A program made the translations under genes and the position numbers. Below the pieces are notes generated by a model that did not search any database, was not told the origin of the DNA, and was given only the letters and a program-made list of their open reading frames with translations. Source: Leucothrix arctica (GTDB lineage Bacteria > Pseudomonadota > Gammaproteobacteria > Thiotrichales > Thiotrichaceae). From it: a DNA stretch of 64,000 bases. Every line of letters starts with the position of its first letter. Within the stretch, counting starts at the first letter, position 1. The stretch is from assembly GCF_003172895.1 (NCBI RefSeq), contig NZ_QGKL01000035.1, forward strand, positions 124,001 to 188,000, read 5' to 3'. Shown here piece after piece: positions 36,880 through 54,144 of this stretch.

Positions 36880-38592
36880 TTTAAAGACGCGAGATACCAC
36901 AATTATGACGCGACTAAAACCCATGCACTTCGCTATGTGAAAAATACTGCTGGCACCACATTACGAACGTATAACTACGATGCCAATGGAAATATGGAAA
37001 GTGGTGATAGCCGAACTATTGAATGGACAAGTTTTAACAAACCATCAAAAATTACCAAAGGCAAAACTGTTGTATCGTTTGGTTACGGTATAAACCGTGA
37101 ATGCCTGGTTAAAGAGGTAAAAGATGGTACCAAGACATGGTACATCGGTGGTTTAGTTGAGCGTGAGCTTAAGAAGGATGGTTCAGAACTACTAAAGTAC
37201 CACCTTAAAGTCGGTGGTAACGCCTTTGGTACTATCAAGCAAAACTTTAATGCTGCGAAAAGCCGTACATCACTGACCTTGCGCTATGTGCTAAAAGACT
37301 ACTTAGGCTCTGTCGATACCATTGTTGACTCTAATAACAAGAAAGTGGCTAAGCTAAGTTTTAGCAGTTGGGGTGAGAGACGTGGTGATACATGGAGTCC
37401 ATTAAATACGATTCAGTACAACAGTATGCTCGCGGGGATCAATAAAGAGTCAGTTAAACGAGGCTTTACAGGTCATGAGCATGATGATGAAGTTGGTTTA
37501 ATCAATATGGGTGGGCGTTTGTATGACGCGAAGATCGGTCGATTCATTAGTGCTGATCCGCATGTCCAAGCACCGAGTGATACTCAGAGTTATAATCGGT
37601 ATAGCTATGTGAAGAATAATCCGCTGTCTTATACTGACCCTAGTGGTTACTTCTTTAAGAAGTTGTTTAATAAGATCGGGACATTCCTGAAAAAGTATGG
37701 ACGTACGATACTTGCTATTGGTGCGGCTGCATTGACAGCTGGGTGGTCTTTGGGGTGACAGGCTGCTGCAGGTATTGGTACTGCGATGAAAGCCGGTGCG
37801 TTAGCAGGGGCTGTGTCAGGTGCTATAATGACTGGGAGTGTCAAAGGAGCTTTATTTGGAGGTTTGTCTGCTGGGATTGCATTTAAAATAGGTGCTGCTG
37901 CTAGTTTAGGTAAGTTTGGTAAGTCACTTGCTCATGGCGCAACACAAGGAGGGGTCAATGTTCTTCAGGGCGGAAAGTTCAGATCAGGCTTTATGGGAGG
38001 TTTTTTTGGTCACCTTTCTGCTGGCTTAGGGCAAAGTCTTGTTGGCGATGGCCGTTCATGGGGGAGCATTATGGGTCGTACTGCTGTTTCCTCAGTGGTA
38101 GGAGGCACTATCTCTAGAGTATCGGGTGGTAAGTTTGCTAATGGTGCAATTACAGCTGCTTTTACACACTTGTTTAATGCAGAGACAGCAAAAAAAATTA
38201 CTTGGGATAAGTTATCATTAGCCCAAAAAAGAAATGTTGTCTCAGGAGTGGGGTCTGACTACGATAGATTATTAAAAGATTATGGTAATATGACTGATAA
38301 GGAGATAGGGGCACTTCTTGGAATTAACCCCTTTGAAGCTAGATATAGGGCTTTAAAAGGACTTAATCGAATTAAAATGAATATTCTAAATGTACAAATC
38401 GCAGATGCATTCGCTGATACGGCATCTTATGCATCTGACGCTTTTGCTCTAAAAAGAACATCTAAGGTTGCTCAGGGTCTCTGGGGCTTTCTCTCGGGTG
38501 CGACAGGCGATGGTCATGTTGTAGCACGAGGCTATATTTACGTTGATACTAAACATGGTTATATTTTTAAGGCAGGTTGGGGAATTGAATAA
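36880..38592 (+). pseudogene. Rhs C-terminal tip, 5'-truncated and interrupted by an in-frame TGA
   Basis: The frame opens at the junction with the exonuclease fragment and reads HALRYVKN, TYNYDANGNMESGDSRTIEWTSFNKP, DYLGSVDTIVD, GFTGHEHDDEVGLINMGGRLYDAKIGRFISADP and YSYVKNNPLSYTDPSGY, the conserved end of the Rhs core. At 37756-37758 a TGA interrupts the same frame after AGWSLG, and the frame continues QAAAGIGTAMKAG to 38592. The second half has the Gly-rich linker (GGKFRSGFMGGFFGHLSAG, GGKFANGAITAAFTHLFN) usual before Rhs toxins, then about 125 residues (ITWDKLSLAQKRNVV ... YIFKAGWGIE) that would be the toxin domain, which I do not recognise. No ribosome binding site precedes either half. 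Confidence 0.8.
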
Positions 38593-39700: not shown

Positions 39701-41161
39701 TTAGCTTAAACCACCCAAGCAAACATACTTGATTTCTAAGTAGTCTTCGATCCCGTACATAGACCCTTCACGGCCCAAGCCAGACTCTTTCACACCACCA
39801 AAGGGTGCAACTTCAGTCGAGAACGCGCCGGTGTTCACCGCAACAATTCCATACTCCAAACCTTCACTCACTTTTGTATAAGTGTTGATGCTCTGAGTGT
39901 AGAGGTATGCCGCCAAACCAGCGTCAGTGTCGTTTGATACAGCAATCGCTTCATCAATCGTTTCAAACTTATAGACAGGTGCAACAGGGCCAAAGATCTC
40001 TTTAGAGCAAAGTTGCATAGAGTCATCAGCGTTAGTTAAAACAACAGGACTTATGAAAGGTGCTCTTTTGTTAGTGACTAAGTCACGCTTAGTCGCTTGC
40101 ACAGCACCTTTCTCTTTAGCATCTAGAATTAGTTTAAGTACTGACTCATGTGCCTTCTCATCAATTAAAGGCCCTAAATCAACACCTTCTTCCATGCCGT
40201 TACCGATTTTAAGCTTGTCAACCTCAGCTGCCAGCTTTTCAACAAACTCATCATGAATGCCGCTTTGTACATAGAAGCGATTAGGGCAAACACAGGTTTG
40301 ACCGTTGTTTCTAAACTTAGCAACGACTGCACCGGCGACCGCAGCATTAACATTAGCGTCATCAAAAACGATAAATGGCGCGTTTCCACCGAGCTCAAGA
40401 GATAGCTTTTTGATGTTGTCCGCAGACTGTCGCATAAGGATTTTACCGACACCTGTAGAGCCAGTGAAAGACAGCTTACGTACTGTTTTGCTTTCACAAA
40501 ACACTTCACCGATAGCAATAGAGTCACCTGTAATGACTTGTAAAACTCCAGCTGGAACACCTGCTTCTTCAGCGAGTGCAACTAGTGCAAATGCGGTTAG
40601 TGGTGTCTGTGGTGCAGGTTTAATAATCATCGTGCAACCTGCCGCTAGAGCAGGGCCCGCTTTACGTGTGATCATTGCTGCTGGAAAGTTCCAAGGTGTA
40701 ATCGCAACCGTTACACCAATAGGCTCTTTTCTAACCGTCATGCGTGTGCCAGGAATGTTCTCAGGAATGATGTCCCCATAGATACGTTTACCTTCTTCGC
40801 CAAACCACTCGATAAACGACGCGGCATAAGCGATTTCACCCTTAGCCTCGCCGAAAGGCTTGCCTTGCTCAGATGAAAGAATTAACGCTAAGTCATCCTG
40901 GTTAGCCATCACTAACTCGAACCAGCGACGTAATATCGCAGATCTAGTTTTTGCAAGTTCTGAGCGCCAGCCAATTTGTGCAGCTGCTGCATGCTCAATG
41001 GCTTTAAGTGCTTCCGTATCATCCATGAACGGCACAGCAGTAATCACTTCGCCTGTTGCAGGGTTCATTATATCTTCTGTCTTCCCTGAAGCCGCTGAGT
41101 GCCACTCTCCGTTGATATAACATTTGTCTTTCAATAGAGCAGGTTGAGTAAGAGTCTTCAT
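39701..41161 (-). CDS. gabD: NAD(P)-dependent succinate-semialdehyde dehydrogenase
   Basis: A 486-residue aldehyde dehydrogenase of the GabD type, which oxidises succinate semialdehyde to succinate. Signatures are CYINGEW, NPATGEVI, TPWNFPAAMITRKAGPALAAGCTMIIKPAPQTPL (cofactor binding), the catalytic Glu in LELGGNAPFIVFDDA, the catalytic Cys in FRNNGQTCVCPNRFYV and the C-terminal GGVKESGLGREGS. Length and TxKP region match GabD. It is the last gene of a minus-strand run phaR, alpha/beta hydrolase, gabD, with gaps of 15 and 122 bp. Its position beside PHA genes and a decarboxylase/acetolactate-synthase-like gene suggests that its substrate arises from 2-oxoglutarate or from stored 4-hydroxybutyrate; substrate remains inferred. 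Confidence 0.88.
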   Translation of the reverse strand: MKTLTQPALLKDKCYINGEWHSAASGKTEDIMNPATGEVITAVPFMDDTEALKAIEHAAAAQIGWRSELAKTRSAILRRWFELVMANQDDLALILSSEQGKPFGEAKGEIAYAASFIEWFGEEGKRIYGDIIPENIPGTRMTVRKEPIGVTVAITPWNFPAAMITRKAGPALAAGCTMIIKPAPQTPLTAFALVALAEEAGVPAGVLQVITGDSIAIGEVFCESKTVRKLSFTGSTGVGKILMRQSADNIKKLSLELGGNAPFIVFDDANVNAAVAGAVVAKFRNNGQTCVCPNRFYVQSGIHDEFVEKLAAEVDKLKIGNGMEEGVDLGPLIDEKAHESVLKLILDAKEKGAVQATKRDLVTNKRAPFISPVVLTNADDSMQLCSKEIFGPVAPVYKFETIDEAIAVSNDTDAGLAAYLYTQSINTYTKVSEGLEYGIVAVNTGAFSTEVAPFGGVKESGLGREGSMYGIEDYLEIKYVCLGGLS

Positions 41162-41283
41162 GAATATTACCTCATGTTTGATGTTGTATGATTTTTATGA
41201 CTGCCTTGATATAAAAAGTTAGGCGGTTTACCTATATTAATTACATTTAAGGGTGGTTAGATGCTTTGTAATTGTCTGGCTTA

Positions 41284-42174
41284 TTAGGTGCTTTTTAGCC
41301 AGTCAGCAATTACATTGACTTGTTCGTCATTACGCAGTGTTGGCGTATGGCCGGTGTTTTCAAATTCCACTAGGGTCGTTTCTGGGCCTGTTGATATCAT
41401 TCTTTGTGCAACCTCTTCAGTCAAAAAACTTGAGTCTTTGCCTCGAAGTATGAGTACTGGGCAGCTTATTTGGTCCCATGCTTCCCACATATCAACATTA
41501 AGATAAGTAATTGATTTTCTAAAAGCTTCACCGACACACTTGTCCGTTTTCAAACGCCATTTACCCTTGCTCGTGCGTCGGCAGGAGTGCTTTGTTAGGT
41601 GTTTCCAGTCCACATCAGTCATGGGAGCAAACTCTTCATAAATAACTCTGAAATAAGCTTCGACGTCTTCAAGTGTGTCAAAGTCTTCCTTCGGTTCCAT
41701 GTTCTCAGACAGTGAGAGTAAGGTATCGCGAGCAACTTCCGGACCAATATCATTAATCACGAGTCGGCGAATAGGGGACTGCGGCAGTGAGGCTAAAACC
41801 ATACCGATGATGCCTCCCATAGAAGTACCAATCCAGTTCACTTCTGTAACACCTAGGCGAGCAATCAGAGCATTCATGTCTGAATTGTACTGTAGGTAGT
41901 TGTAGCCTTCGTCTGTACCTAGGTGGTCGCTATCACCACGGCCCACAACGTCAGGACATACGACTCGATAATCTTTGCACATTTTCTTTGCTAGATAATC
42001 AAAATCACGGGCGTTTCGGGTAATACCGTGTACGCAGAGCAGGGTTTCTTGTGTGTTGAATTTACTCGCTTTTCCCCATTCAATGTAATGGATTCTGTGA
42101 AAGCCGTGAAAGCCTAAACCAAGATGAAATTTTGTTGAATAAGCAGTGGCAGGTTGGGTTACTTTATGTGGCAT
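41284..42174 (-). CDS. Alpha/beta hydrolase next to phaR, possible PHA oligomer hydrolase
   Basis: A 296-residue cytoplasmic alpha/beta-hydrolase. The oxyanion region is LLCVHGITRNARDFDYLA, the nucleophile elbow is WIGTSMGGIIG (Ser), the Asp is in LILRGKDSSFLTEEV, and the catalytic His is in FENTGHTPTL. It has no signal peptide. Proteins of this kind next to PHA genes are often annotated as hydrolases or intracellular depolymerases. It lies 15 bp after phaR and before the semialdehyde dehydrogenase gene, so these three may serve PHA mobilisation. The substrate is not determined. Confidence 0.75.
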   Translation of the reverse strand: MPHKVTQPATAYSTKFHLGLGFHGFHRIHYIEWGKASKFNTQETLLCVHGITRNARDFDYLAKKMCKDYRVVCPDVVGRGDSDHLGTDEGYNYLQYNSDMNALIARLGVTEVNWIGTSMGGIIGMVLASLPQSPIRRLVINDIGPEVARDTLLSLSENMEPKEDFDTLEDVEAYFRVIYEEFAPMTDVDWKHLTKHSCRRTSKGKWRLKTDKCVGEAFRKSITYLNVDMWEAWDQISCPVLILRGKDSSFLTEEVAQRMISTGPETTLVEFENTGHTPTLRNDEQVNVIADWLKST

Positions 42175-42189
42175 ATTATTAGCTCCTGA

Positions 42190-42825
42190 TTATTTGGTTG
42201 ATTTTAGAGACTTGAGTTGTCCTTGAAGGACTTCAAGCTCTGCTTGCATATTGGCCAACTTTTTCTCCAAATCTACAGTGGTATTACTACCTGTAGCTTC
42301 AGTGGTCTCTGTATCTTCTGTTGTCTTATGATTAAATATTTGAAGCGATTGATTGAAAAACTCAATGTTTTGTCGTGCAATATTTTGACCAAATTCCATC
42401 GCTACTTGGGTGTTTTTGTTGATGGCGTCACCCCAAGCTTCGGTCATTTTGTTCTTTTCTGTTTGAAACAACCGCATCGATTCTGTTAGATAATCAGGCA
42501 CCATGTGTGAACAAGTATCCGAGTACATATTGATCAATTGCTTTTGTACTTCTAACGAAAAGTGATAATTTTTAGGCTTAACTTCTTTCTCAAAAATGAT
42601 CTGATTAAGAATGCTACGGGTGATGTCATCACCGGTTTTTTTGTCTTGAATAATAAATGGTGTATCTGAATTAATCAGCTCTATCACATCATCTAGTACT
42701 ATATATGTACTAGTCGAAGTGTTGTAAAGACGACGATTAGGGTACTTCTTTATTAAGATCGGAGTTGGCTCGGCTGATGCCGTATTCTCATTCTCTAGGG
42801 TTGTTTTTTTTGTAGAGTTTGGCAC
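42190..42825 (-). CDS. phaR: Polyhydroxyalkanoate synthesis repressor PhaR
   Basis: PhaR represses phasin genes and is titrated away by PHA granules. This 211-residue protein has the DNA-binding PHB_acc_N domain (about 25-85: ILIKKYPNRRLYNTSTSTYIVLDDVIELI, FIIQDKKTGDDITRSILNQIIFE), followed by a PHB_acc segment (KNYHFSLEVQKQLINMYSD... YLTESMRLF) and a C-terminal coiled coil (LEKKLANMQAELEVLQGQLKSLKS). Family length is about 180-200. It is divergent from the phasin gene; TGC-rich inverted sequences in the 280-bp gap are candidate binding sites. Confidence 0.94.
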   Translation of the reverse strand: MPNSTKKTTLENENTASAEPTPILIKKYPNRRLYNTSTSTYIVLDDVIELINSDTPFIIQDKKTGDDITRSILNQIIFEKEVKPKNYHFSLEVQKQLINMYSDTCSHMVPDYLTESMRLFQTEKNKMTEAWGDAINKNTQVAMEFGQNIARQNIEFFNQSLQIFNHKTTEDTETTEATGSNTTVDLEKKLANMQAELEVLQGQLKSLKSTK

Positions 42826-42842
42826 GTTCGTTACCTGTTATA

Positions 42843-42854
42843 TTGCAGTGCACA
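42843..42854. promoter_or_regulatory. phaR: Possible PhaR site in the phaR promoter
   Basis: ttgcagtgcaca, 18 bp upstream of the phaR ATG, contains a short TGCA-type palindrome like those reported for PhaR sites. It would allow autoregulation. Assigned by resemblance only. Confidence 0.35.
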
Positions 42855-42983
42855 TCTTATCATGTATGTTTATTGCAAACAAATATATGTAATTACGGGT
42901 TTGTTTTTTAGAGATTAACTATATGTTTTAATTGTATTTATTTTGGGTTTGATGTTTCTTTGGAGGGTAGTTATGAGCTTGAA

Positions 42984-43019
42984 TTGTGCGGCGCAGCAAA
43001 TAAATGTTGCAACGCACAA
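42984..43019. promoter_or_regulatory. Compound inverted repeat upstream of the phasin gene, candidate PhaR operator
   Basis: ttgtgcg (42984-42990) and cgcacaa (43013-43019) are perfect inverted repeats, and inside them gcagcaa and ttgcaac form a second, imperfect pair. The TGC/GCA-rich character is similar to operators of PhaR in other bacteria, and it lies 86 bp before the phasin ATG. Confidence 0.5.
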
Positions 43020-43104
43020 ATAGTTGGGTTAATCTAGCATCACGGTCTGACTAAAGATGGAGATTTACATCTCTAAAATTTAATTCATTAAGAGGTAATT
43101 TGAC

Positions 43105-43500
43105 ATGGCTACAGTAAAGACGAAAACAGAAGCGAAAGTACAAGAAGCAGTAGAAAAGACACAGGAATTTGCAACAAAGCAAATCACTGCATCTGAGAAA
43201 GCTACTGAGAGCATGATTGAGTTCAACGCAGCAATGTTTAAGAACAGTGAAGTTGTTGCTAAGAAAGTTTATGACAACTACTTATCAAATGTTGCAGCAA
43301 GCTTTGAAGCAATGAAGTCATTGAACAAAGCATCTGACGCAGCAGAGTTTTACAAAGTTGCTTCTAAGAATTCAGCAACAGCTTCTGAAAAATTCATGGA
43401 ACAGTCGAAAGATCTAATCGAGCTTTCTGGTAAGATGATTAAAGAGACGACTGAAATTGGTCAAAGTGCTTACGCTAAGAGCTTTGCTTCAAGCATGTAA
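43105..43500 (+). CDS. phaP: Phasin family protein
   Basis: A 131-residue, low-complexity, amphipathic helical protein rich in Ala, Lys, Glu and Ser with no Cys or Trp, as expected of a phasin coating PHA granules. It has EAVEKTQEFATKQITASEKATESMIEFNAAMFKNSEVVAKKVYDNYLSNV and AASFEAMKSLNKASDAAEFYKV, the pattern of the phasin_2-like family. The ribosome binding site agaggt precedes the ATG. It is monocistronic, with a strong terminator downstream. The symbol phaP is used in the generic sense. Confidence 0.85.
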   Translation: MATVKTKTEAKVQEAVEKTQEFATKQITASEKATESMIEFNAAMFKNSEVVAKKVYDNYLSNVAASFEAMKSLNKASDAAEFYKVASKNSATASEKFMEQSKDLIELSGKMIKETTEIGQSAYAKSFASSM

Positions 43501-43548
43501 AAAGCGTTTAGTTCGCAGGTTATGAAAGTAATTTGTAGGCATACTAGA

Positions 43549-43588
43549 AAAAGCGATTTCATTTAATTATGGAATCGCTTTTTTTTTA
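43549..43588 (+). terminator. Strong terminator after the phasin gene
   Basis: aaaagcgatt and aatcgctttt form a ten-pair stem around about 12 bases and are followed by eight or more T residues. Confidence 0.85.
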
Positions 43589-43757
43589 CTCAATTGTACG
43601 AAAAAACAAGAACATTGGCTGATATTGTTTAATTATTGACGTATGATTTGGTCTTATCTTGATCTATTCTAAGTCCATTATTATTAAAATAAATATTCAT
43701 TATAATTTAATGATATATATAGAATTTATCGTATAGACAGGGGAATTCACCAAACGG

Positions 43758-43775
43758 TATTGTGATTACACAATA
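43758..43775. promoter_or_regulatory. Palindrome TATTGTG-N4-CACAATA upstream of the decarboxylase operon
   Basis: tattgtg and cacaata are perfect inverted repeats with a four-base spacer (atta), 32 bp before the ATG at 43808. The core TGT-N4-ACA resembles operators of GntR/FadR-like regulators. No such regulator is encoded in the window. Confidence 0.45.
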
Positions 43776-43807
43776 TGTTTTAACAAGCGTGTACGGAGAA
43801 AAAACGA

Positions 43808-45448
43808 ATGAATGCAGCTCAACTACTCGTAAAGTGTCTCGAAAATGAGGGGGTAGAATATATTTTCGGCATCCCAGGAGAAGAAAATATCGCAGTGATG
43901 GATGCACTGCTTGATAGTCCAATTGAGTTTATAATTACACGACATGAGCAGGGTGCTGCTTTCATGGCTGACGTGTACGGAAGATTGACGGGCCGAGCAG
44001 GTGTTTGTATGTCAACGTTGGGTCCGGGTGCAACTAACCTAGTGACTGGTGTTGCTGATGGAAATATGGATTTCGCCCCGATGGTTGCGATCGCTGGTCA
44101 AGGCGCGACAACTAGAATGCACAAAGAGAGTCATCAGGTACTAGACTTAGTTAATCTGTTTGACCCAATTACTAAGTACTCTACACAAATTCGCGAACCA
44201 GAAATTGTGCCAGAAATTGTACGTAAAGCGTTCAAAAATGCTCAAGCTGAAAAGCCGGGCGCAGCATTCATTGATTTCCCAGAAAACGTAGCCGATATGG
44301 ACGTGGGAAATAGCGTTCCGTTGTTTGTACAATCTCCGCAACAATCAACTGCGCCAGTCGGTAAGTGTCGCCAAGTTGCTGAACTTATTAGTGCAGCAAA
44401 AAATCCTATTATTATTGCTGGTAACGGCATTATTCGAAACAAAGCATCTGCCGAACTCGTTCATTTTGCTGAGTTGGTAAACGCGCCTGTTGCGACAACA
44501 TTTATGGCGAAGGGTGTTTTACCTTCAGCTCATCCATTAAGTCTTGGCACGGTTGGCTTGAAAGCATATGACCTTGTTTCATACGGCATAGATGACGCGG
44601 ACTTAGTGATTTGTATCGGTTATGACATGATCGAATATGATCCTGCTTATTGGAATCCTAATGCTGATAAGCGCATTATTCATATTGATTCTCGTGCAGC
44701 TGAAGTAGATACAAACTACATCGTTGAAGCTGGCGTTATTGGTGACATGAAAAACTCGCTAACTCGTATCGCGGCACGTTGTGAGAGTGAGCCACGCAAG
44801 CCAATGGTAAAGTTGCGTGAAAAAATTAAGCATGAACTTAATAAGCACGCTGACGATACTGGTTTCCCAGTTAAGCCTCAGAAGATTATCCATGACTTGG
44901 GTAAGGTGTTAGACCCTGAAGATATTCTAATATCGGATGTTGGTGCTCACAAAATGTGGGTTGCGCGTATGTATCAGGCACAGCGTCCTAATACTTGTAT
45001 CATTTCAAATGGTTTTGCATCAATGGGAATCGCCTTACCGGGCGCTATCGCAGCAAAGCTGGTTTACCCTGAAAAGAACATCGTTGCAGTGGCGGGTGAT
45101 TCTGGTTTCATGATGAATAGTCAAGAAGTCGAAACAGCGGTACGTCTTGGTCTAAATATTACGATTATCATCTTTAACGATAACAAGTACGGTCTTATTG
45201 AGTGGCATCAGCTACGTCATTATGGACGTGCGAGTCATATTGATGTGACAAACCCAGACTTTGTTATGTTTGCTGAAAGCTTTGGTGCTAAAGGCTACAA
45301 AGTTGACAGTGCAGAGTCGTTGGTAGGAATTCTTGAAGAAGCAATGAATGATGGCACTGTGTCTATTATTGATTGCCCAGTCGATTATTCTGAAAATATG
45401 AAGCTAACCGAACGATTAAAATCTCTAACATCTATTGATCAAGAGTAA
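43808..45448 (+). CDS. TPP-dependent acetolactate-synthase-like enzyme, candidate 2-oxoglutarate decarboxylase
   Basis: A 546-residue thiamine-diphosphate enzyme. It begins MNAAQLLVKCLENEGVEYIFGIPGEENIAV, with catalytic Glu47 in ITRHEQGAAFMADVYGR, and shows STLGPGATNLVTGVADG in the PYR domain and the cofactor motif GDSGFMMNSQEVETA ... FNDNKYGLI near 430-460. By family it would be called acetolactate synthase. However, this N-terminus is very like that of the cyanobacterial 2-oxoglutarate decarboxylase that is usually misannotated so and sits beside a succinate-semialdehyde dehydrogenase. No ilvN/H small subunit or alsD is next to it. The following genes (alcohol dehydrogenase 6 bp away, phaE, phaC, CoA-transferase) fit a decarboxylase making succinate semialdehyde. 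Function is inference. Confidence 0.75.
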   Translation: MNAAQLLVKCLENEGVEYIFGIPGEENIAVMDALLDSPIEFIITRHEQGAAFMADVYGRLTGRAGVCMSTLGPGATNLVTGVADGNMDFAPMVAIAGQGATTRMHKESHQVLDLVNLFDPITKYSTQIREPEIVPEIVRKAFKNAQAEKPGAAFIDFPENVADMDVGNSVPLFVQSPQQSTAPVGKCRQVAELISAAKNPIIIAGNGIIRNKASAELVHFAELVNAPVATTFMAKGVLPSAHPLSLGTVGLKAYDLVSYGIDDADLVICIGYDMIEYDPAYWNPNADKRIIHIDSRAAEVDTNYIVEAGVIGDMKNSLTRIAARCESEPRKPMVKLREKIKHELNKHADDTGFPVKPQKIIHDLGKVLDPEDILISDVGAHKMWVARMYQAQRPNTCIISNGFASMGIALPGAIAAKLVYPEKNIVAVAGDSGFMMNSQEVETAVRLGLNITIIIFNDNKYGLIEWHQLRHYGRASHIDVTNPDFVMFAESFGAKGYKVDSAESLVGILEEAMNDGTVSIIDCPVDYSENMKLTERLKSLTSIDQE

Positions 45449-45454
45449 AATCTA

Positions 45455-46609
45455 ATGCATACATTTCAATTTAATACGACGAAGTCTGTGCTTTGTGAAG
45501 TTGGCGGCACAGCCAAAATTGGCGACCTGATGGTAGCAATGGGCTGTAAGAAAGTCGCATTTGTTACAGACAAGATTATTTTAGAATTGGGTTTAGCGGA
45601 AGCTGCCTTAGAAGGACTAAAAATTGCAGGTGTAGAAGTTCACTTAATTGATGATGTTGTTCCTGATCCACCAGAGGCAATGGTGCTAACAGCCGTTGCT
45701 GAAGCTGAGAAAGCAGGTGTTGATGGTGTTGTCTCTGTGGGTGGTGGTTCATCGTTAGATACTGCAAAACTGATTGCAGCATTGGTCGGTTCAAAGCAAG
45801 AAATTAGTGAAATGTACGGTGTCGGTCAAATTACCGGTAAGCGTCTACCACTTATACTTGCGCCAACAACTGCAGGTACAGGTTCAGAAGTAACGTCCAT
45901 CTCGATTGTCTCTACTGGCGATAGTGAGAAAAAGGGTGTTGTTTCAGAAGTGTTACTACCTGACTGGGCAGTACTTGATGCAGAGCTAACGGTTGGTTTG
46001 CCGAGTCACATTACGGCAGCAACGGGTATTGATGCGATGGTACATGCCGTCGAAGCCTATACCTCAAAGATTAAGAAAAATATCCTTTCAGATACTTTGG
46101 CCTGTCGTGCTTTAGCGTTACTTGGAGAAAATATCCATATCGCGTGTAAAGATGGTCAAAATCGTGAAGCACGTTCAAACATGTTATTGGGTTCGATGCT
46201 TGCAGGTATGGCATTTGCCAATTCACCTGTGGCTGCTGTGCATGCGCTGGCATATCCATTAGGTGGACATTTTCATGTTCCTCACGGACTTTCAAACGCA
46301 TTAGTACTGCCTTATGTACTAGAGTTTAATATGGTTGAAGCCAGTGAGCAGTATGCAGATATTGCCCCTATCATCTTCCCAGAATTAGCAGGATTGTCTG
46401 TTGAAGCTAAGGCTGATGGTATGGTTAAAGGCTTTATGGAGCTAGGGCCAGCATTGGGTTTACCTACTAAGCTGTCTGAAGTGGGCGTTACCGAAGGTGA
46501 CTTAGCGATGTTAGCGGAAGATGCTATGAAGCAAAGCCGCTTGTTAATGAATAACCCACGCGAAATGACTTATGAAGCTGCTTTAGCGATTTACACTAAA
46601 GCACTGTAA
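45455..46609 (+). CDS. Iron-containing alcohol dehydrogenase, candidate 4-hydroxybutyrate dehydrogenase
   Basis: A 384-residue group III alcohol dehydrogenase. It has the nucleotide-binding GVVSVGGGSSLDTAKLIA and APTTAGTGSEVTSISIVS, and metal ligands in TGIDAMVHAVEAYTS (Asp and His) and VHALAYPLGGHFHVPHG (His residues). By family it reduces an aldehyde to an alcohol with NAD(P)H. In this context (directly after a putative 2-oxoglutarate decarboxylase and before PHA synthase genes) the likely substrate is succinate semialdehyde, giving 4-hydroxybutyrate. The family also includes butanol, propanediol and other dehydrogenases, so specificity is not determined by sequence. Confidence 0.85.
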   Translation: MHTFQFNTTKSVLCEVGGTAKIGDLMVAMGCKKVAFVTDKIILELGLAEAALEGLKIAGVEVHLIDDVVPDPPEAMVLTAVAEAEKAGVDGVVSVGGGSSLDTAKLIAALVGSKQEISEMYGVGQITGKRLPLILAPTTAGTGSEVTSISIVSTGDSEKKGVVSEVLLPDWAVLDAELTVGLPSHITAATGIDAMVHAVEAYTSKIKKNILSDTLACRALALLGENIHIACKDGQNREARSNMLLGSMLAGMAFANSPVAAVHALAYPLGGHFHVPHGLSNALVLPYVLEFNMVEASEQYADIAPIIFPELAGLSVEAKADGMVKGFMELGPALGLPTKLSEVGVTEGDLAMLAEDAMKQSRLLMNNPREMTYEAALAIYTKAL

Positions 46610-46654
46610 GCGTTTTTCACTGATTCAATTGCGACACTTGTCGGAGGATTTTAA

Positions 46655-47431
46655 ATGTCAAAGAATGATGGTTTTGAACAAATGATGAATATGTGGAGCG
46701 AGGGTCAGGCGGCCTTTTTTAAGGCTCAGAAAGATTCAATGGAAAGTTTTGAAAACGCGTTATCAGGCACTAAAAAGCAAAAGGACTCCGACCCTTTTGC
46801 AATGTGGCAGGACTTTGTTCAAGCATGGGCACCCAATTGGGATGTTAAGTCGATGTTGGATAATCCGCTAGATGCAGGATTCTCTAGTGGGCGTGATGCT
46901 TTTTTAAATATGATTACGCCGTCGAATTGGTCACCTTTTGCGCCTGAGCAACTGCGAACAATTCTTGAAAGTGTTGCGCAAGGTCCTCAATTTGCTGACC
47001 TTGCGACACCTCAAATTGAAATGGCTGAGGCGTGGCGTGAAACATTAGACTACCAACAGTCCTTAGCTGATATGGGGAAGGTGCTGCAAGAAACATGGGC
47101 ACGTACTCTTAAAAAATATACTGAAGAATATTCAGTAGATGATCTAAACTCTGGTGACGTTTCTGGCGCTTTAGAAACGTGGCTGAAAATTGCTAACTCA
47201 GAATTATTAGAGACACAGCGCTCTAATGAATTTATGGCTGCTCAGCGCGGTATGTTGCGCTCTTCAATAGAAATCAAAGCGCGCATGCGAGAGGTTGCTG
47301 AGAACTGGAGTGAGTCCTATCAAATGCCTACACGAACAGAGCTTGATGACCTGATGAAGACGGTTCATGAGTTACGCCGTGAAGTGCGCAAATTAAAGCG
47401 TGATGTGGTATTGCTTAAAAAGGGCCAGTAA
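46655..47431 (+). CDS. phaE: Class III PHA synthase subunit PhaE
   Basis: A 258-residue helical protein that activates class III PhaC by complex formation. It has MWSEGQAAFFKAQKDSMESF at the N-terminus, FAMWQDFVQAW, LQETWARTLKKYTE, FMAAQRGMLRSSIEIKARMREVAENW, and the C-terminal PTRTELDDLMKTVHELRREVRKLKRDV, the conserved PhaE end that also occurs in PhaR-type class IV partners. Length is somewhat shorter than the 350-residue Allochromatium PhaE. It precedes phaC by 2 bp, which supports a class III pair. Confidence 0.9.
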   Translation: MSKNDGFEQMMNMWSEGQAAFFKAQKDSMESFENALSGTKKQKDSDPFAMWQDFVQAWAPNWDVKSMLDNPLDAGFSSGRDAFLNMITPSNWSPFAPEQLRTILESVAQGPQFADLATPQIEMAEAWRETLDYQQSLADMGKVLQETWARTLKKYTEEYSVDDLNSGDVSGALETWLKIANSELLETQRSNEFMAAQRGMLRSSIEIKARMREVAENWSESYQMPTRTELDDLMKTVHELRREVRKLKRDVVLLKKGQ

Positions 47432-47433
47432 TC

Positions 47434-48795
47434 ATGATACCAAGTAAAAGAAATAGATCTGGTGAGCCAGTAAATGCTTACGAAGAAGCCGCAGAAGCGT
47501 GGGGCTTAGCTTGGCAACAAATGGTTGCTTCTGGGACTAAGGCTGCAAAATCGAATGCCTTTCTTACGGAAATCAAAGCAGAAGATATTCAGATAGCAGA
47601 AACGCCTTCTGAAGTTGTCTTTGAAATTGATAAAGTAAAACTGCATCGCTATTTGCCACTGACTGACAAAAAGAAAGATGCTGACCCTCTACTGATCTGT
47701 TACGGCCTGTTTGGTCGTCAAACAATGATTGATCTGCAAGAAGACCGTTCATTGGTTCGAAACTTACTAATGGAAGGGTTTGAAGTGTATGTCGTGGATT
47801 GGGGTAACCCAACACGCGCTGATCAGTTCCTCAACTTTGATGATTACATCGACCTATACTTAGGTTCGTGTGTCGAACATGCGGTAGAAGCTAACGGTGG
47901 TAAGCCGATTAGATTGTTTGGAATTTGTGAAGGTGGAACGTTTGCCGCTTCTTTAGCAGCACTAAGACCAGAGCTACTTTCCGGTTTAATACTGGCTATT
48001 ACCCCTATCGATTTTCATGGTAAACCAGATGAGTTTTGGGCAGGAGAGGGCTTCTTAAACACGTGGTTTAATAACCTGTCTGAAGATGATGTTAACTTGG
48101 TTATTGATACTTTAGGTATGTTACCGGGCGCAATGACTGGGGCAATATTTTCTTCACTGTCGACCGTTAACAGTTCTACTAAGTACAGCCTTGGCTTGCT
48201 CAAGATGGAAGGGAATGAAGCAGCGATGCTAAACTTCCTTCGTATGGAAAAGTGGATTGCTGATCGTCCTGACCACCCCGGTGAAGCTGCACGTCAATGG
48301 GTTAACGAGCTCTACCGCGAAAATCGTTTGATTAAAGGCACTTTCGAAGTGTCTGGTGAGAAAGTAGATCTCGCGAAAATCCAGTGTCCAGTACTGAATA
48401 TTTATGCTGAAAAAGATCATATTATTCCGGTGAGTTGTACTAAAGCACTCGGACAGTTTGTTAAAAAAGACCTGTATGAAGAAATCGGTTTCCCCGGTGG
48501 TCATGTCGGTGTTTTTGTAAGCCGCAAAGCACAAGGAGTGGTTGCGGGAGGTATTCTTGATTGGGTCAACCGTACAACAGTTAAGGCGCCTACAAGAGCC
48601 AAGAAAGCACCAGTAAAAGCAGCAACTAAAGCACCTGTTAAGGCCGCAGCAAAGACGGTAGCAAAGGCACCTGTTAAAGCCGCAGCAAAGACGGTATCAA
48701 AAGCACCTGTTGAAGCTGCAGTAAAGACAGCGTCAAAAGCACCCGCTAAAGCACCAGCAAGGGCTAGGGCACCAAAAGCTCCCCCAAAGAAATAG
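47434..48795 (+). CDS. phaC: Class III poly(hydroxyalkanoate) synthase PhaC with a basic, histone-H1-like tail
   Basis: PhaC polymerises hydroxyacyl-CoA into polyester at granules. Residues about 50-380 are the synthase: LLICYGLFGRQTMIDLQEDRSLV, VYVVDWGNPTRADQFLNFDDYI, the lipase-like box FGICEGGTFAAS with catalytic Cys, NIYAEKDHIIP with catalytic Asp and FPGGHVGVFVS with catalytic His. Class III is indicated by the length of the synthase part (about 350 residues) and by the adjacent phaE. The last 70 residues (384-453) are a Lys/Ala/Pro-rich tail of repeated KAPVKAAAKTV units, unusual for PhaC and like the DNA-binding tails of histone H1-like AlgP or PhaM. It could tie granules to the nucleoid; this is inference. 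Confidence 0.93.
   Translation: MIPSKRNRSGEPVNAYEEAAEAWGLAWQQMVASGTKAAKSNAFLTEIKAEDIQIAETPSEVVFEIDKVKLHRYLPLTDKKKDADPLLICYGLFGRQTMIDLQEDRSLVRNLLMEGFEVYVVDWGNPTRADQFLNFDDYIDLYLGSCVEHAVEANGGKPIRLFGICEGGTFAASLAALRPELLSGLILAITPIDFHGKPDEFWAGEGFLNTWFNNLSEDDVNLVIDTLGMLPGAMTGAIFSSLSTVNSSTKYSLGLLKMEGNEAAMLNFLRMEKWIADRPDHPGEAARQWVNELYRENRLIKGTFEVSGEKVDLAKIQCPVLNIYAEKDHIIPVSCTKALGQFVKKDLYEEIGFPGGHVGVFVSRKAQGVVAGGILDWVNRTTVKAPTRAKKAPVKAATKAPVKAAAKTVAKAPVKAAAKTVSKAPVEAAVKTASKAPAKAPARARAPKAPPKK
48583..48792 (+). repeat. 36-bp tandem repeats encoding the PhaC basic tail
   Basis: The end of phaC contains about four related 36-bp units (12 codons, KAPVKAAAKTVA, KAPVKAAAKTVS, KAPVEAAVKTAS and KAPAKAPARARA), preceded by a partial unit. 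The repeats keep the frame and end three codons before the stop. Confidence 0.7.
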
Positions 48796-48843
48796 GCTAT
48801 TCTATTTACTGATCAAAACGTACACGAGGAAGGGAATCATTTA

Positions 48844-50775
48844 ATGGTCGATAAAGTAGTTAAGTTGGAAGACGCAGTAGCCGCAATTAACGACGGTGAC
48901 ACAGTGTGTGTATCAGGTTTTGTCGGGATTGGTACGCCTGAGTGTTTGCTGCGTGGTATAGAAAATCGCTTTTTAGAAGAGGCGATGCCTAAGAATATTT
49001 CTTTATTGTTTGCTGCTGCCCCAGGTGATGGACAAGAGCGAGGCTTAAATCGCTTAGCGATTCCTGGCTTGGTGAAGCGCGCCATCGGTGGGCACTGGTC
49101 ATTAGTACCGAAGTTAGGTGCGATGGCTATTAATAATGAGATTGAAGCGTATAACTTACCCCTAGGTTGTATCTCACAGTTGTATCGGGATATTGCTGCG
49201 GGTAAGCCCGGCATGTTCTCTAAAGTAGGGTTACATACGTTTGTTGACCCTAGGCAAACGGGTGGTGCGATCAATGATTTGACGACTAAGCCACTCGTTG
49301 AACTCAAAGAAATCGATAATGAAGAGTGGTTGTTCTATCGATCCATTCCTGTCGATGTGGCATTGATTCGAGGTACTACGGCAGATCGCCTTGGTAACAT
49401 TACGATGGAGCGTGAAGCGTTGACGTTGGACATGCTGTCGATTGCGATGGCTGCGAAAAACTCAGGTGGCTTAGTGATTGCGCAAGTTGAGCGAATTGCC
49501 GCTAATGGTAGTCTGGACCCTAGACAAGTAGTTATACCGGGTAATCTGGTGGATTGTGTTGTGGTCTCTGGCTCTGAGGAACATCTTCAGACTTATTCTA
49601 CCGCTTATGACCATGCATTTAGTGGTCGTATGAGGGCTGACGTTGATCATGTGCAGTATATGGATCTTAACGAGCGCAAGATTATTGCGCGTCGTGCAGC
49701 GATGGAACTTCCAATTAATGGTGTCGTCAATTTGGGTATTGGTATGCCTGAAGGAGTATCTGCGATTGCTAATGAAGAGGGGATTATCGATAACATCACG
49801 TTGACAACAGAAGCGGGTGTTTTTGGTGGTATTCCTCAGTCTGGGCTCGATTTTGGCGCGGCAATCAATGCCAGTGCTGTTATTCAAACCCACCAACAGT
49901 TTGATTTTTATGATGGCGGTGGTTTGGATTTAGCCTGCTTAGGTATGGCAGAAGTTGATGCTCGCGGTGATGTGAATGTGAGTTGCTTTAAAGGCCGTTT
50001 TGCTGGCGCAGGTGGCTTTATTAATATTTCACAAAATGCCCGTAAGGTAGTGTTTGTGGGAACCTTTACCGCAGGGGGCTTAAAGGTTGAAGTGTCAGGT
50101 GGTGAGTTAAAGATCATTCAGGAAGGTCGTAACCGTAAGTTCTTGGAGGCAGTCGAGCAGATTACTTTCAACGGTGAATACTCTAGAACGCAAGGCCAAG
50201 AGGTACTTTACGTCACGGAGCGTTGTGTATTTCGTTTTTGTGACTCAGGGTTAGAGCTAACTGAGATAGCCCCTGGTATCGACTTAGAAAGAGATATTTT
50301 GAGTCAAATGAACTTTACGCCGCTTATTAGAAACGTAAAACTTATGGATGCGTGTATTTTTGATGAGCGACGTATGAAGTTGCGCAGTCATTTACTTGAT
50401 ATTCCGATAAAAGATCGATTGGTTCACGACGAAAAAACTAACATCGTTTTTGGGAACTTAAGTGGACTACGAGTCAGCTCAGTTGAGCAGCTTGAAGTTT
50501 TAAATGATGAATTAAATTCGTTTTTCAAAAATATCGGTAGAAAAGTTAACCTTGTATCCAACCATGATGGGGTGGATATCTCTTCTAAAATGGAAGCCAA
50601 GTTCGTTAACATGTTGCAGCAATTGGAGCGTGATTATTACCTCAAGGCATCCCGTTATTCTACGAGTGCTTTCCTTCGTCAGAAGCTTGGTAAAGATCTT
50701 AAGAATCGTTCTATTCCTTCTCATATTTTTGAAACGCGTGAAGAAGCCGCTTCTTTTATCTCTAAAAGTAAGTAG
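48844..50775 (+). CDS. Fused acyl-CoA:acetate CoA-transferase (YdiF/Pct type) with a C-terminal extension
   Basis: A 643-residue family I CoA-transferase that carries both subunits in one chain, like E. coli YdiF or propionate CoA-transferase (about 520-530 residues). The alpha-like half has DGDTVCVSGFVGIGTPECLL and GKPGMFSKVGLHTFVDPRQTGG; the beta-like half has VVNLGIGMPEGVSAIA, the catalytic Glu323 in LTTEAGVFGGIP, and GGGLDLACLGMAEVDARGDVN. About 115 extra residues (from about 530) include VSNHDGVDIS, QQLERDYYLKASRYSTSAFLRQKLG and SHIFETREEAASF, of unknown role. It closes the operon with the decarboxylase, alcohol dehydrogenase and PHA synthase; a role in making 4-hydroxybutyryl-CoA is inference. 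A terminator follows. Confidence 0.85.
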   Translation: MVDKVVKLEDAVAAINDGDTVCVSGFVGIGTPECLLRGIENRFLEEAMPKNISLLFAAAPGDGQERGLNRLAIPGLVKRAIGGHWSLVPKLGAMAINNEIEAYNLPLGCISQLYRDIAAGKPGMFSKVGLHTFVDPRQTGGAINDLTTKPLVELKEIDNEEWLFYRSIPVDVALIRGTTADRLGNITMEREALTLDMLSIAMAAKNSGGLVIAQVERIAANGSLDPRQVVIPGNLVDCVVVSGSEEHLQTYSTAYDHAFSGRMRADVDHVQYMDLNERKIIARRAAMELPINGVVNLGIGMPEGVSAIANEEGIIDNITLTTEAGVFGGIPQSGLDFGAAINASAVIQTHQQFDFYDGGGLDLACLGMAEVDARGDVNVSCFKGRFAGAGGFINISQNARKVVFVGTFTAGGLKVEVSGGELKIIQEGRNRKFLEAVEQITFNGEYSRTQGQEVLYVTERCVFRFCDSGLELTEIAPGIDLERDILSQMNFTPLIRNVKLMDACIFDERRMKLRSHLLDIPIKDRLVHDEKTNIVFGNLSGLRVSSVEQLEVLNDELNSFFKNIGRKVNLVSNHDGVDISSKMEAKFVNMLQQLERDYYLKASRYSTSAFLRQKLGKDLKNRSIPSHIFETREEAASFISKSK

Positions 50776-51248: not shown

Positions 51249-52244
51249 ATGTTATTTAATAAGAGCGTTAAGACGCTTGTAAAAGCTACTTTAGTAGGTG
51301 TTGCAATTGCAGCGTTCACTTCATCTGTAAGTGCTGAAACTTTACGTGGCGCAAGCATGTTCGACGATAAGCATACCTTTACCAAGACAATGGTTAAGTT
51401 CGGCGAGTTAGTTGAAAAGCATTATGATGGTGACGTTGAGTTTGACCTTCGTTTGAATAGTGAGTTGGGTGTTGAGAAAGATTATGTAACTTTCCTAAAC
51501 CAAGGTGTAGCAATTGATTACACAATTCTTGCGCCTTCAAACATGGCTCGTTTTGCACCTTCGATTCCATTAATGGATATGCCTTTCTTGTTCCGTGATC
51601 TAGAGCACTGGAATACTGCATTAGGTAGCGATGTAATGGCTCCTTTAGAGAAAGAGCTTTCTGACAAGGCAGATATTGTTATCGTTGGTTATGCAGGTGG
51701 TGGAACACGTAACTTATTATCTAAAAACCCAGTGGGTAATTTAGAAGAGTTAAAGGGTCATAAAATGCGTGTTATGGGTGCACCTATTCAGGCACAAATT
51801 TTTGATGCTTTAGGCGCAGCTCCATCGGCTATTGCATATAACGAAGTTTATAATGCTATTCAAACAGGTGTTATTGCTGGATTTGAGAACGAAGCGGCAA
51901 GTATTCAGAACCTAAAGTTCTACGAAGTAGCTCCTAACGTTACTTTGACTGGCCATACAATTACTGTACGTCCAATCGTATTCAGTGGTAAGAAGTTCCG
52001 TAAACTGCCTGCTAAGCTTCAAGAAGCAATCATGCAAGCGGGTAAAGAAGCGGGTGCATTTGGTCGTGAACTTGAGTCTCGTGAAGATGCTATCAAGCTG
52101 AAAGAAATGTCTGATGCTAAGCAAATCATTGTTTCTGAGTTTGAAGGCCGTGAAAAGCTATTAGACATGGTTAAGCCAGTACAAGATAAGTTCGCAGAAA
52201 GCATTGAGGCAACAGAGTTACTGAAAGCTATTCGTAGCAAGTAA
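51249..52244 (+). CDS. dctP: TRAP transporter substrate-binding protein DctP
   Basis: A 331-residue periplasmic binding protein of the DctP family. The signal peptide ends VSA-ET near residue 27. Family features are GASMFDDKHTFTKTMVKFGELVEKHYDGDVEFDL, LMDMPFLFRDLEHW, LSKNPVGNLEELKGHKMRVMGAPIQAQIFDALGAAPSAIAYNEVYNAIQTGVIAGFENEAAS with the conserved Arg that binds the substrate carboxylate, and FSGKKFRKLPAKLQEAI. The ribosome binding site tgaggaga is excellent. Together with DctQ and DctM it imports a carboxylate using the sodium gradient. Ligand cannot be read from sequence; a C4-dicarboxylate or hydroxy-acid is plausible. Confidence 0.93.
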   Translation: MLFNKSVKTLVKATLVGVAIAAFTSSVSAETLRGASMFDDKHTFTKTMVKFGELVEKHYDGDVEFDLRLNSELGVEKDYVTFLNQGVAIDYTILAPSNMARFAPSIPLMDMPFLFRDLEHWNTALGSDVMAPLEKELSDKADIVIVGYAGGGTRNLLSKNPVGNLEELKGHKMRVMGAPIQAQIFDALGAAPSAIAYNEVYNAIQTGVIAGFENEAASIQNLKFYEVAPNVTLTGHTITVRPIVFSGKKFRKLPAKLQEAIMQAGKEAGAFGRELESREDAIKLKEMSDAKQIIVSEFEGREKLLDMVKPVQDKFAESIEATELLKAIRSK

Positions 52245-52270
52245 ATAAGTCGCGTTACCCCCGTTCTGAT

Positions 52271-52309
52271 ATCCCCGTGGTCTTAATTGATCACGGGGAT
52301 GTTTTTTTT
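52271..52309 (+). terminator. Intra-operon hairpin between dctP and dctQ
   Basis: atccccgtg and cacggggat form a perfect nine-pair stem around a 12-base loop, followed by gttttttt. It lies between dctP and dctQ and would lower transcription of the membrane genes relative to the binding protein. Confidence 0.8.
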
Positions 52310-52342
52310 AAGTTAACCCAATTGCCTCCTTGAGGATTATTC

Positions 52343-52837
52343 ATGATTAAACGCGGATTAGAATCGCTGTGTACCGTACTTCGGGTGATGTTAGCTATAT
52401 TAGTCGGAGTCCTAATTATTCCAGTTGCGATGCAGGTGATTGCTCGTTATACCGGCATTATTCCTGTCTACCTTTGGACCGAAGAATTAGCCACCTTTAT
52501 TTTCGTCTGGGTCGTTATGATCGGTTCGGTGGTTGCTGTTTGGGATGGTACGCACTTTGACGTACAAGTCCTTCCAGATAGTTCTAGCCCATTTATTTTG
52601 TTTATCCAAAAAGCGATTGTACTTATACTCGTGGGTGGTTTTGGTGTGTTGTTCGCTTGGTACGGCATCGACTATGCGAAGTTTGGCTATGCTCAACATT
52701 CAGTGATGATGAATGCTAATTATTTGATAACGCACGTCACGATTCCACTGGCCGGATTGCTGTGGGGCGTTTTTTCTTTCTTCCGCTTAAGCGAAGCATT
52801 TACAGAATACAAATCGACTAAAAAGGTTGCTTCATGA
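52343..52837 (+). CDS. dctQ: TRAP transporter small membrane subunit DctQ
   Basis: A 164-residue membrane protein with four helices, matching the DctQ family: VMLAILVGVLIIPVAMQVIARYTGIIPVYLWTEELATFIFVWVVMIGSVVAVWDGTHFDVQVL, containing the conserved EELA/F region, and two more helices (VLILVGGFGVLFAWYG, HVTIPLAGLLWGVFSFF). It starts 33 bp after the hairpin, with aggatt upstream of the ATG, and overlaps dctM by 4 bp. Confidence 0.93.
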   Translation: MIKRGLESLCTVLRVMLAILVGVLIIPVAMQVIARYTGIIPVYLWTEELATFIFVWVVMIGSVVAVWDGTHFDVQVLPDSSSPFILFIQKAIVLILVGGFGVLFAWYGIDYAKFGYAQHSVMMNANYLITHVTIPLAGLLWGVFSFFRLSEAFTEYKSTKKVAS

Positions 52838-54144
52838 TTCTTTCTACCGGACTTGCTTGCGCGCTATTAGTGGGCGGCTTTTTACTTTTGGTTATCCTGC
52901 GTGTGCCAGTGGCATTTGCTTTGGGTATTGCCACCATTCCTGTTGTTGCGATGGATTTGCGTTTGACGCCATTCATCATCATCGACCGTATGTTTCAGTC
53001 GTATAACTCGTTTATATTATTGGCCGTACCGTTCTTCTTGTTAGCCGCCAACCTTATGAACTCGGGAAAGATTACCGATAAGCTCATCGACTTGGCAAGG
53101 GTGCTCACAGGCTGGATGCCGGGCGGCTTGGGTCATGTAAACGTTGCGGTATCAATGCTGTTTGCAGGTATCTCTGGGTCGTCTACAGCGGATGCAGCAG
53201 GTTGTGGAAAAATTCTTATTCCTTCGATGATTAAAGAAGGCTATGACCCGCGTTTTGCTATTGCACTGACTGCTTGCTCATCGGTTATGGGTGTCATCAT
53301 TCCTCCAAGTATTTTGATGATTGTTTGGGGTGGTGTGATGCAGGTATCGGTTGGGGCATTGTTCTTAGCTGGCGCAATACCCGGCTTAATGATTGGTTTC
53401 GCGCTAATGGCGACGGTGTACGGTTACGCGAAAGTGTACAACTACCCAATCGCTGAGAAGCCTACACTTAAAACAGCCTTTAAAGCGTTTAAAGGTGCTT
53501 TCCTTGCGATGTTAACGCCAGTGTTCGTTATCTACGGTATCGTTGCTGGTGTTGTGACACCAACTGAAAGTGCAATTATTGCAGCGGGTTACTCGTTGTT
53601 CTTAGGTATGGTTGTTTACAGAACAGTGACGGTACGTGAAGTAGGGACTATCCTTTATGACACAGGTCGCTTTGCATCAATCTCGTTATTCGCGATTGGT
53701 ACAGCGTCAGTGTTTGGTTGGTTGTTAGCATTCTATAAAGTGCCGTTGTTGATCATTACGTTTATGACTGACATGCAGCTAGGTAGCTTTGAAACTGCAT
53801 TGGCTATCGCGTTCCTATTCTTGTTCTTCGGTTTGTTTATTGATGCGATTCCGACGATCATTATTTTGGGAACCGTGTTACTACCTGTAGCGGCTCAAGC
53901 GGATATTTCTCCGATTATATTCGCTATCATCGGAATCATCTCGTTGGCGTTTGGACTGGTTACTCCTCCTTATGGTCTATGCCTGCTGATCTCCGCCTCC
54001 ATTGGTGGGATGAATGTGACTCAGGTGTTGAAGGAAGTGGTTATTATCCTTATACCGATGTTGCTGATTTTGTTGTTGATTATTATCTTCCCTGAGATTG
54101 CGCTTTGGTTACCTAAGCAACTTATGCCGGCTTCTTTTAATTAA
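52834..54144 (+). CDS. dctM: TRAP transporter large permease DctM
   Basis: A 436-residue permease of the DctM family with about 12-13 membrane segments. Signatures are LAVPFFLLAANLMNSGKITDKLIDLARVLTGWMPGGLGHVNVAVSMLFAGISGSSTADAAGCGKILIPSM, KEGYDPRFAIALTACSSVMGVIIPPS, GVVTPTESAII, DAIPTIIILGTVLLPVA and LAFGLVTPPYGLCLL. Length equals DctM (about 430). It overlaps dctQ by 4 bp and ends the operon. Confidence 0.95.
   Translation: MILSTGLACALLVGGFLLLVILRVPVAFALGIATIPVVAMDLRLTPFIIIDRMFQSYNSFILLAVPFFLLAANLMNSGKITDKLIDLARVLTGWMPGGLGHVNVAVSMLFAGISGSSTADAAGCGKILIPSMIKEGYDPRFAIALTACSSVMGVIIPPSILMIVWGGVMQVSVGALFLAGAIPGLMIGFALMATVYGYAKVYNYPIAEKPTLKTAFKAFKGAFLAMLTPVFVIYGIVAGVVTPTESAIIAAGYSLFLGMVVYRTVTVREVGTILYDTGRFASISLFAIGTASVFGWLLAFYKVPLLIITFMTDMQLGSFETALAIAFLFLFFGLFIDAIPTIIILGTVLLPVAAQADISPIIFAIIGIISLAFGLVTPPYGLCLLISASIGGMNVTQVLKEVVIILIPMLLILLLIIIFPEIALWLPKQLMPASFN

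Follow-up and report, generated by a model that had tools for sequence, protein, structure and literature searches.

The window analysed here, 64,000 nucleotides of contig NZ_QGKL01000035.1 from Leucothrix arctica, contains between positions 39701 and 50775 a cluster of polyhydroxyalkanoate (PHA) genes together with a thiamine diphosphate (ThDP) enzyme that carries the family name of acetolactate synthase. On the minus strand lie a GabD-type succinate-semialdehyde dehydrogenase (SSADH; 486 aa, 39701-41161; TIGR01780, PRK11241, Aldedh), an alpha/beta hydrolase (296 aa, 41284-42174; Abhydrolase_1) and the PHA-responsive repressor PhaR (211 aa with a GTG start, 42190-42825; PHB_acc_N, TIGR01848). 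On the plus strand, a phasin or granule coat protein (131 aa, 43105-43500; Phasin_2 PF09361, 46.7 bits) is followed by the ThDP enzyme (546 aa, 43808-45448; PRK08322), an iron-dependent alcohol dehydrogenase (Fe-ADH; 384 aa, 45455-46609; PF00465), the class III-like PHA synthase partner subunit PhaE (258 aa, 46655-47431; PHA_synth_III_E PF09712, TIGR01834), the catalytic subunit PhaC (453 aa, 47434-48795; TIGR01836) and a fused, FadX/YdiF-like CoA-transferase (643 aa, 48844-50775; CoA_trans). All eight genes of the first-pass annotation were found at their coordinates, its plus-strand gaps of 6, 45, 2 and 48 bp are exact, and its family assignments hold in domain searches, where matches were judged against curated bit-score cut-offs; the phasin gene, between PhaR and the ThDP gene, had been overlooked. 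Fe-ADH, PhaE, PhaC and the CoA-transferase form a single operon-like run, and scans for promoters and terminators gave results at or below chance. HisG, HisD and NIF3 flank the cluster at one end, SmpB and DNA polymerase III delta at its other end; these are ordinary chromosomal genes, and the cluster is thus chromosomal.

We consider it likely that this cluster diverts 2-oxoglutarate into poly(4-hydroxybutyrate) (P4HB) and recovers succinate. In the proposed pathway, the ThDP enzyme, a predicted 2-oxoglutarate decarboxylase, would convert 2-oxoglutarate to succinate semialdehyde (SSA), which the Fe-ADH, a predicted SSA reductase, would reduce with NADH to 4-hydroxybutyrate (4HB). The fused CoA-transferase, predicted to act as an acyl-CoA:4-hydroxybutyrate CoA-transferase, would form 4HB-CoA, probably with acetyl-CoA as the CoA donor, and PhaE/PhaC would polymerise it; the phasin would coat the granule, and PhaR would repress until polymer is present. 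On the degradative side, the hydrolase would release 4HB from the polymer, the reversible Fe-ADH or another dehydrogenase would return it to SSA, and the SSADH would oxidise SSA to succinate for re-entry into the tricarboxylic acid (TCA) cycle. The first-pass annotation had read the genes in this same order, and the scheme is well supported by the ThDP tree, the active-site residues, the supply genes of related operons and the Sinorhizobium meliloti reductase GhbD; we infer the decarboxylation and its substrate, the CoA donor, the polymer with its monomers, and the depolymerase role.

The ThDP enzyme scores 787 bits (cut-off 509) against PRK08322, which is NCBIfam NF006187, 'acetolactate synthase large subunit', and 493.8 bits against the AlsS model TIGR02418, under the cut-off of 551. 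In a tree of 73 proteins, with AlsS represented by two PDB entries and two budA-linked genes, and acetohydroxyacid synthase (AHAS) by E. coli IlvB and IlvI and the copy from the window's own genome, the enzyme sits outside both the AlsS and AHAS clades, which are separate and fully supported. This separation and the active-site residues are, like the gene content and its conservation, direct observations. The enzyme's own clade is large, with relatives at 60-81% identity and many genes adjoining an aldehyde dehydrogenase; such pairing, recurrent in the 60-70% relatives, matches the gene layout of the cyanobacterial shunt of 2-oxoglutarate decarboxylase and SSADH, which supports a decarboxylase.

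Residues were mapped by position onto those published for the Microcystis decarboxylase MaKGD, described as strictly 2-oxoglutarate-specific, whose substrate contacts (Val382, Lys386, Ala408, Leu467, Gln254 and Lys471) derive from docking (PMC10418658). The ThDP catalytic residues Glu50, Asp435, Asp462 and Met410 are kept as E47, D431, D458 and M406, the contacts Val382, Lys386, Ala408 and Leu467 are kept as V378, K382, A404 and L463, and Ala384, His385, Tyr465 and Tyr531 are likewise retained. At the Lys386 position AlsS has Ala, His or Tyr, and at the Ala408 position Gln, the glutamine absent from the window enzyme; AHAS has Gln and Gly at these two positions. It is therefore unlikely that the window's 'acetolactate synthase' is truly one. 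The corresponding alternative, in which a true catabolic acetolactate synthase stands beside a polymer whose SSA comes from gamma-aminobutyrate (GABA) or other sources, can point to the NCBIfam name and to GABA being favoured as the SSA source in a rhizobial preprint (PMC12636752), but it has to be set against the separate clade, Ala404 and Lys382, the lack in the window cluster of the acetolactate decarboxylase neighbour present at AlsS loci, and the lack in the window's genome of a GABA transaminase (GabT) above cut-off, and we regard it as improbable.

Searches with the ThDP enzyme covered 84,980 species genomes, from which the best 80 loci were returned; no cyanobacterium was among these 80 and none came from plasmids, while viral sequences yielded no cyanobacterial enzyme and only relatives at 27-34%, and a PDB search only AlsS, AHAS and CEAS kin. 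The NF006187 equivalog also takes in a protein of Bosea (820 bits), which like that of the window is without the AlsS residues, and many automatic 'acetolactate synthase' annotations from this model are probably wrong. On a plasmid of Leisingera sp. S132 (L104:10572-13635), a window-type ThDP gene (70% identity) and an aldehyde dehydrogenase gene have TRAP transporter and glyoxalase genes as neighbours; there this decarboxylase clade serves another purpose.

Similarly organised clusters draw on either of two ThDP lineages and on alcohol dehydrogenases from two unrelated families, iron- and zinc-dependent. The window type has the order ThDP enzyme, Fe-ADH, PhaE, PhaC and CoA-transferase, and a betaproteobacterial type has a window-type ThDP enzyme followed by a zinc-dependent alcohol dehydrogenase (Zn-ADH), PhaE, PhaC, hydrolase and CoA-transferase, as in Xenophilus (L032, with an extra aldehyde dehydrogenase), strain GR16-43 (L058) and Variovorax (L048, where PhaEC is absent). 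A rhizobial type, carried by Bosea, Methylobacterium, Rhizobium leguminosarum and S. meliloti, uses a 40%-identical ThDP lineage with Fe-ADH, PhaE, PhaC and CoA-transferase, plus Acs where retained, and in Caballeronia and Skermanella a rhizobial-type ThDP enzyme is paired with Zn-ADH and CoA-transferase. The invariant logic across these types is a 2-oxo acid decarboxylase, an aldehyde reductase, a CoA-transferase and a PHA synthase. A second operon on plasmid pPR4 of R. leguminosarum BIHB 1217 (L119:13998-22416) has the order ThDP enzyme, Fe-ADH, CoA-transferase, Acs and Adk without PhaEC, and is a putative 4HB-CoA module.

Gene content in three of these operons indicates 2-oxoglutarate as the substrate. 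In Bosea vaviloviae, AcnA and an isocitrate dehydrogenase-family gene lie directly upstream of the run of ThDP enzyme, Fe-ADH, PhaE, PhaC and CoA-transferase, which continues into phasin, hydrolase, Acs, PPase and Adk genes and a downstream citrate symporter; here Acs, PPase and Adk would recycle acetate, pyrophosphate and AMP. In the betaproteobacterium GR16-43, an isocitrate dehydrogenase gene that shares 75% identity with its Bosea counterpart starts a few bases past the CoA-transferase gene, and the tricarboxylate receptor TctC is encoded within the run. In Xenophilus, the gene lying 25 bp before the ThDP gene encodes a permease that shares 67% identity with KgtP, the alpha-ketoglutarate symporter of E. 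coli. This context bears on the possibility that the same order of enzymes serves another 2-oxo acid, converting oxaloacetate via malonate semialdehyde to 3-hydroxypropionate, for a poly(3-hydroxypropionate), or 2-oxoadipate to 5-hydroxyvalerate. The enzyme family, through its conserved Lys382, constrains the substrate no further than to a 2-oxo acid bearing a distal carboxylate, and PHA synthases take several omega-hydroxyacyl-CoAs. Such a substrate is nevertheless improbable in the face of the 2-oxoglutarate-specific context of the three operons, the GabD-type SSADH adjoining the window cluster, the strict specificity described for the Microcystis enzyme (PMC10418658) and the action of GhbD on SSA (PMC12636752).

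The closest described system is the pha-1/pha-2 operon of S. meliloti HM006, encoding Fe-ADH (GhbD), PhaE, PhaC2, CoA-transferase (GhbT) and Acs, in a preprint of October 2025 (PMC12636752). Purified GhbD reduces SSA with NADH to 4HB, nodules show a rise in SSA and gamma-hydroxybutyrate, and granules form; the authors propose a P4HB cycle whose SSA would likely come from GABA. They do not recognise the decarboxylase, they note two annotated pseudogenes upstream of the operon, and the portions consulted give no monomers for the polymer. The first-pass view that natural clusters for 4HB polymer had not been described is thus outdated, as the P4HB operon as a kind has already been proposed in that preprint. 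The HM006 operon shares with the window the order Fe-ADH-PhaE-PhaC-CoA-transferase, at 54, 34 (partial), 46 and 57% identity, respectively, and the logic leading from SSA through 4HB to polymer. It differs in being plasmid-borne and symbiotic, whereas the window cluster is chromosomal, in lacking the PhaR and phasin that the window possesses, and in a catabolic route via attKLM in place of the SSADH/hydrolase arm.

The HM006 'pseudogenes' on pSymA (L116:4470-6121) are a ThDP enzyme cut at the boundary between the PYR and central domains, whereas the window ThDP gene is an intact ORF. The two HM006 ORFs overlap by GTGA, an arrangement that resembles translational coupling. Both ThDP copies on pRL10 of R. 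johnstonii 3841 (L105:6098-8009 and 18183-19810) are split at the same place, one with open ORFs overlapping at a GTGA/ATGA-type junction as in HM006, the other with a rearranged linker. The ratio of nonsynonymous to synonymous substitution (dN/dS) is ~0.5 among the split copies, versus ~0.3 to the unsplit Bosea gene, which is consistent with either a two-subunit enzyme or slow decay.

The window Fe-ADH is 54% identical to GhbD, and its activity as an SSA reductase is predicted by analogy with that homologue, the only one for which the reaction is reported (PMC12636752). By itself the Fe-ADH is not diagnostic, as homologues at 54-55% occur outside such clusters. As for the CoA-transferase, the window protein falls in one clade with GhbT and those of other P4HB-type clusters (97% SH-aLRT), CoA-transferases from other contexts fall outside, and the clade tracks the P4HB-type context. 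In one genome from a phylum sample of 398, G615, the start of an Fe-ADH gene is likewise followed by PhaE, PhaC and CoA-transferase in the same order; the neighbourhood of the G731 CoA-transferase held nothing informative. A C-terminal extension of ~130 aa past the FadX/YdiF fold (window 50390-50775) is common to the wider family.

PhaC is class III-like and divergent (317 bits against TIGR01836, PHA_synth_III_C; cut-off 365), and has an adjacent PhaE partner (PF09712 match 3e-12; 52.6 bits against TIGR01834, cut-off 155). Its catalytic triad Cys165, Asp328 and His357 is conserved across all cluster PhaCs, and its C-terminal tail is rich in Ala, Lys and Pro. PhaR matches PHB_acc_N at 6e-25 and TIGR01848 at 109.3 bits (cut-off 109.45). 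The SSADH reaches 645.7 bits against TIGR01780 (cut-off 646.35) and 660 bits against PRK11241, and its best PDB kin are SSADHs, including 4v6h and 3jz4. The hydrolase matches the intracellular PHA depolymerase family NF050089 weakly (62 bits, cut-off 300) and has kin at 38-71% identity in most P4HB-type clusters compared; it is probably an intracellular depolymerase or a 4HB-oligomer esterase.

In the window's genome, the PhaC of the cluster is the only one found by PhaC_N search, with no class I PhaC, and no acetoacetyl-CoA reductase (PhaB) lies above the curated cut-off, so that supply of 3-hydroxybutyryl-CoA (3HB-CoA) by PhaAB is not evident. A PhaB-like gene scoring 270 bits was rejected as a genuine PhaB, since it sits between FabD and FabF and is the FabG of the fab operon. 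The weakest alternative, a polymer that is mixed or mostly 3-hydroxybutyrate with 4HB as a minor branch, is suggested by PhaR, phasin and PhaEC being an ordinary polyhydroxybutyrate toolkit and by the usual acceptance of 3HB-CoA by class III synthases, but is given very little weight in a genome without any other PhaC, where the cluster is without PhaA/PhaB and the best reductase match is that FabG.

The proposal of a P4HB cluster is strengthened by conservation. An eight-gene core of hydrolase, PhaR, phasin, ThDP enzyme, Fe-ADH, PhaE, PhaC and CoA-transferase is kept together in five named alphaproteobacterial genomes among the best 80 loci (L022-L026; Hyphomicrobiales, Rhizobiaceae-group and Amylibacter metagenome-assembled genomes), at 44-81% protein identity, and the cluster is therefore not a chance grouping. 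A copy of the SSADH adjoins the cluster in L026 (56%) and L022 (52%), and in all five genomes a phasin also neighbours it, on the other strand. Near relatives within the window's own genus are without the ThDP gene, and the window groups with the core-bearing genomes in the trees of its ThDP enzyme, Fe-ADH and CoA-transferase, so that acquisition of the cluster by horizontal transfer is likely. A DctPQM TRAP (tripartite ATP-independent periplasmic) transporter, encoded 0.5 kb past the CoA-transferase and on its strand (51249-54144), is not kept beside the cluster in these genomes, and two successive ORFs of 273 and 268 aa adjoining the cluster (36937-38592) have no Pfam match.

Several points weigh against the 2-oxoglutarate-to-P4HB assignment. 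Of the MaKGD docking contacts, Lys471 is His467 in the window, as in most 60-70% relatives, and Gln254 is probably Lys252; in addition, Gly436 is Ser432. The cyanobacterial decarboxylases were compared through published residues only, the tree being without their sequences, and the predicted decarboxylase assignment rests on residues and context. The Bosea and S. meliloti ThDP enzymes belong to the other lineage (~40% identity), and their context therefore transfers by analogy only. With PhaC, PhaE, SSADH and PhaR at or below curated cut-offs, the family names do not give substrates. Lastly, the window's genome has an ordinary 2-oxoglutarate dehydrogenase E1, so that the ThDP enzyme is not needed for closing the TCA cycle.

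Closing the TCA cycle is the function of the cyanobacterial decarboxylase/SSADH shunt (Synechococcus 7002 A2770/A2771; MaKGD, PMC10418658), which resembles the window in its equal-length ThDP enzyme, most of the key residues and a nearby SSADH; the window cluster would instead route SSA to polymer, and its GabD-type SSADH gene, unlike that of the shunt, lies on the opposite strand. Ordinary class III synthase loci (phaC-phaE) share the PhaE/PhaC pair, the Cys in a G-x-C-x-G-G box, PhaR and phasin, but use phaA/phaB for 3HB-CoA where the window has genes forming 4HB-CoA. Chemistry from 2-oxoglutarate identical to the proposed route was engineered in Synechococcus 7002 with a 2-oxoglutarate decarboxylase, 4HB dehydrogenase and CoA-transferase, and a sucD-4hbD-orfZ-phaC design in E. 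coli; 4HB polymers from unrelated carbon are treated in the reviews consulted as an engineering achievement (PMC7147479). These routes are man-made from genes of different organisms, whereas the window cluster is natural. The new elements are the predicted dedicated 2-oxoglutarate decarboxylase at the head of a chromosomal cluster that also brings its own PhaR, phasin, hydrolase and SSADH, and the recurrent building of the pathway from different parts.

More broadly, and with somewhat less assurance than for the window itself, we favour the view that 2-oxoglutarate, which accumulates when nitrogen is short, is drained into P4HB through a dedicated decarboxylase, that this route arose on more than one occasion by combining non-orthologous components (ThDP enzymes of two lineages, iron- or zinc-dependent dehydrogenases), and that the rhizobial 'pseudogenes' are its split decarboxylase. 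The cluster, like its relatives, suggests that pathways from a TCA intermediate to 4HB polymer exist in nature, with genes directly usable for P4HB, a medical polymer, and part of the large 'acetolactate synthase' family NF006187 is probably misnamed. For rhizobia, such a decarboxylase would assign a role to the unexplained genes upstream of the S. meliloti P4HB operon, and bacteroids may draw SSA from it rather than from GABA.

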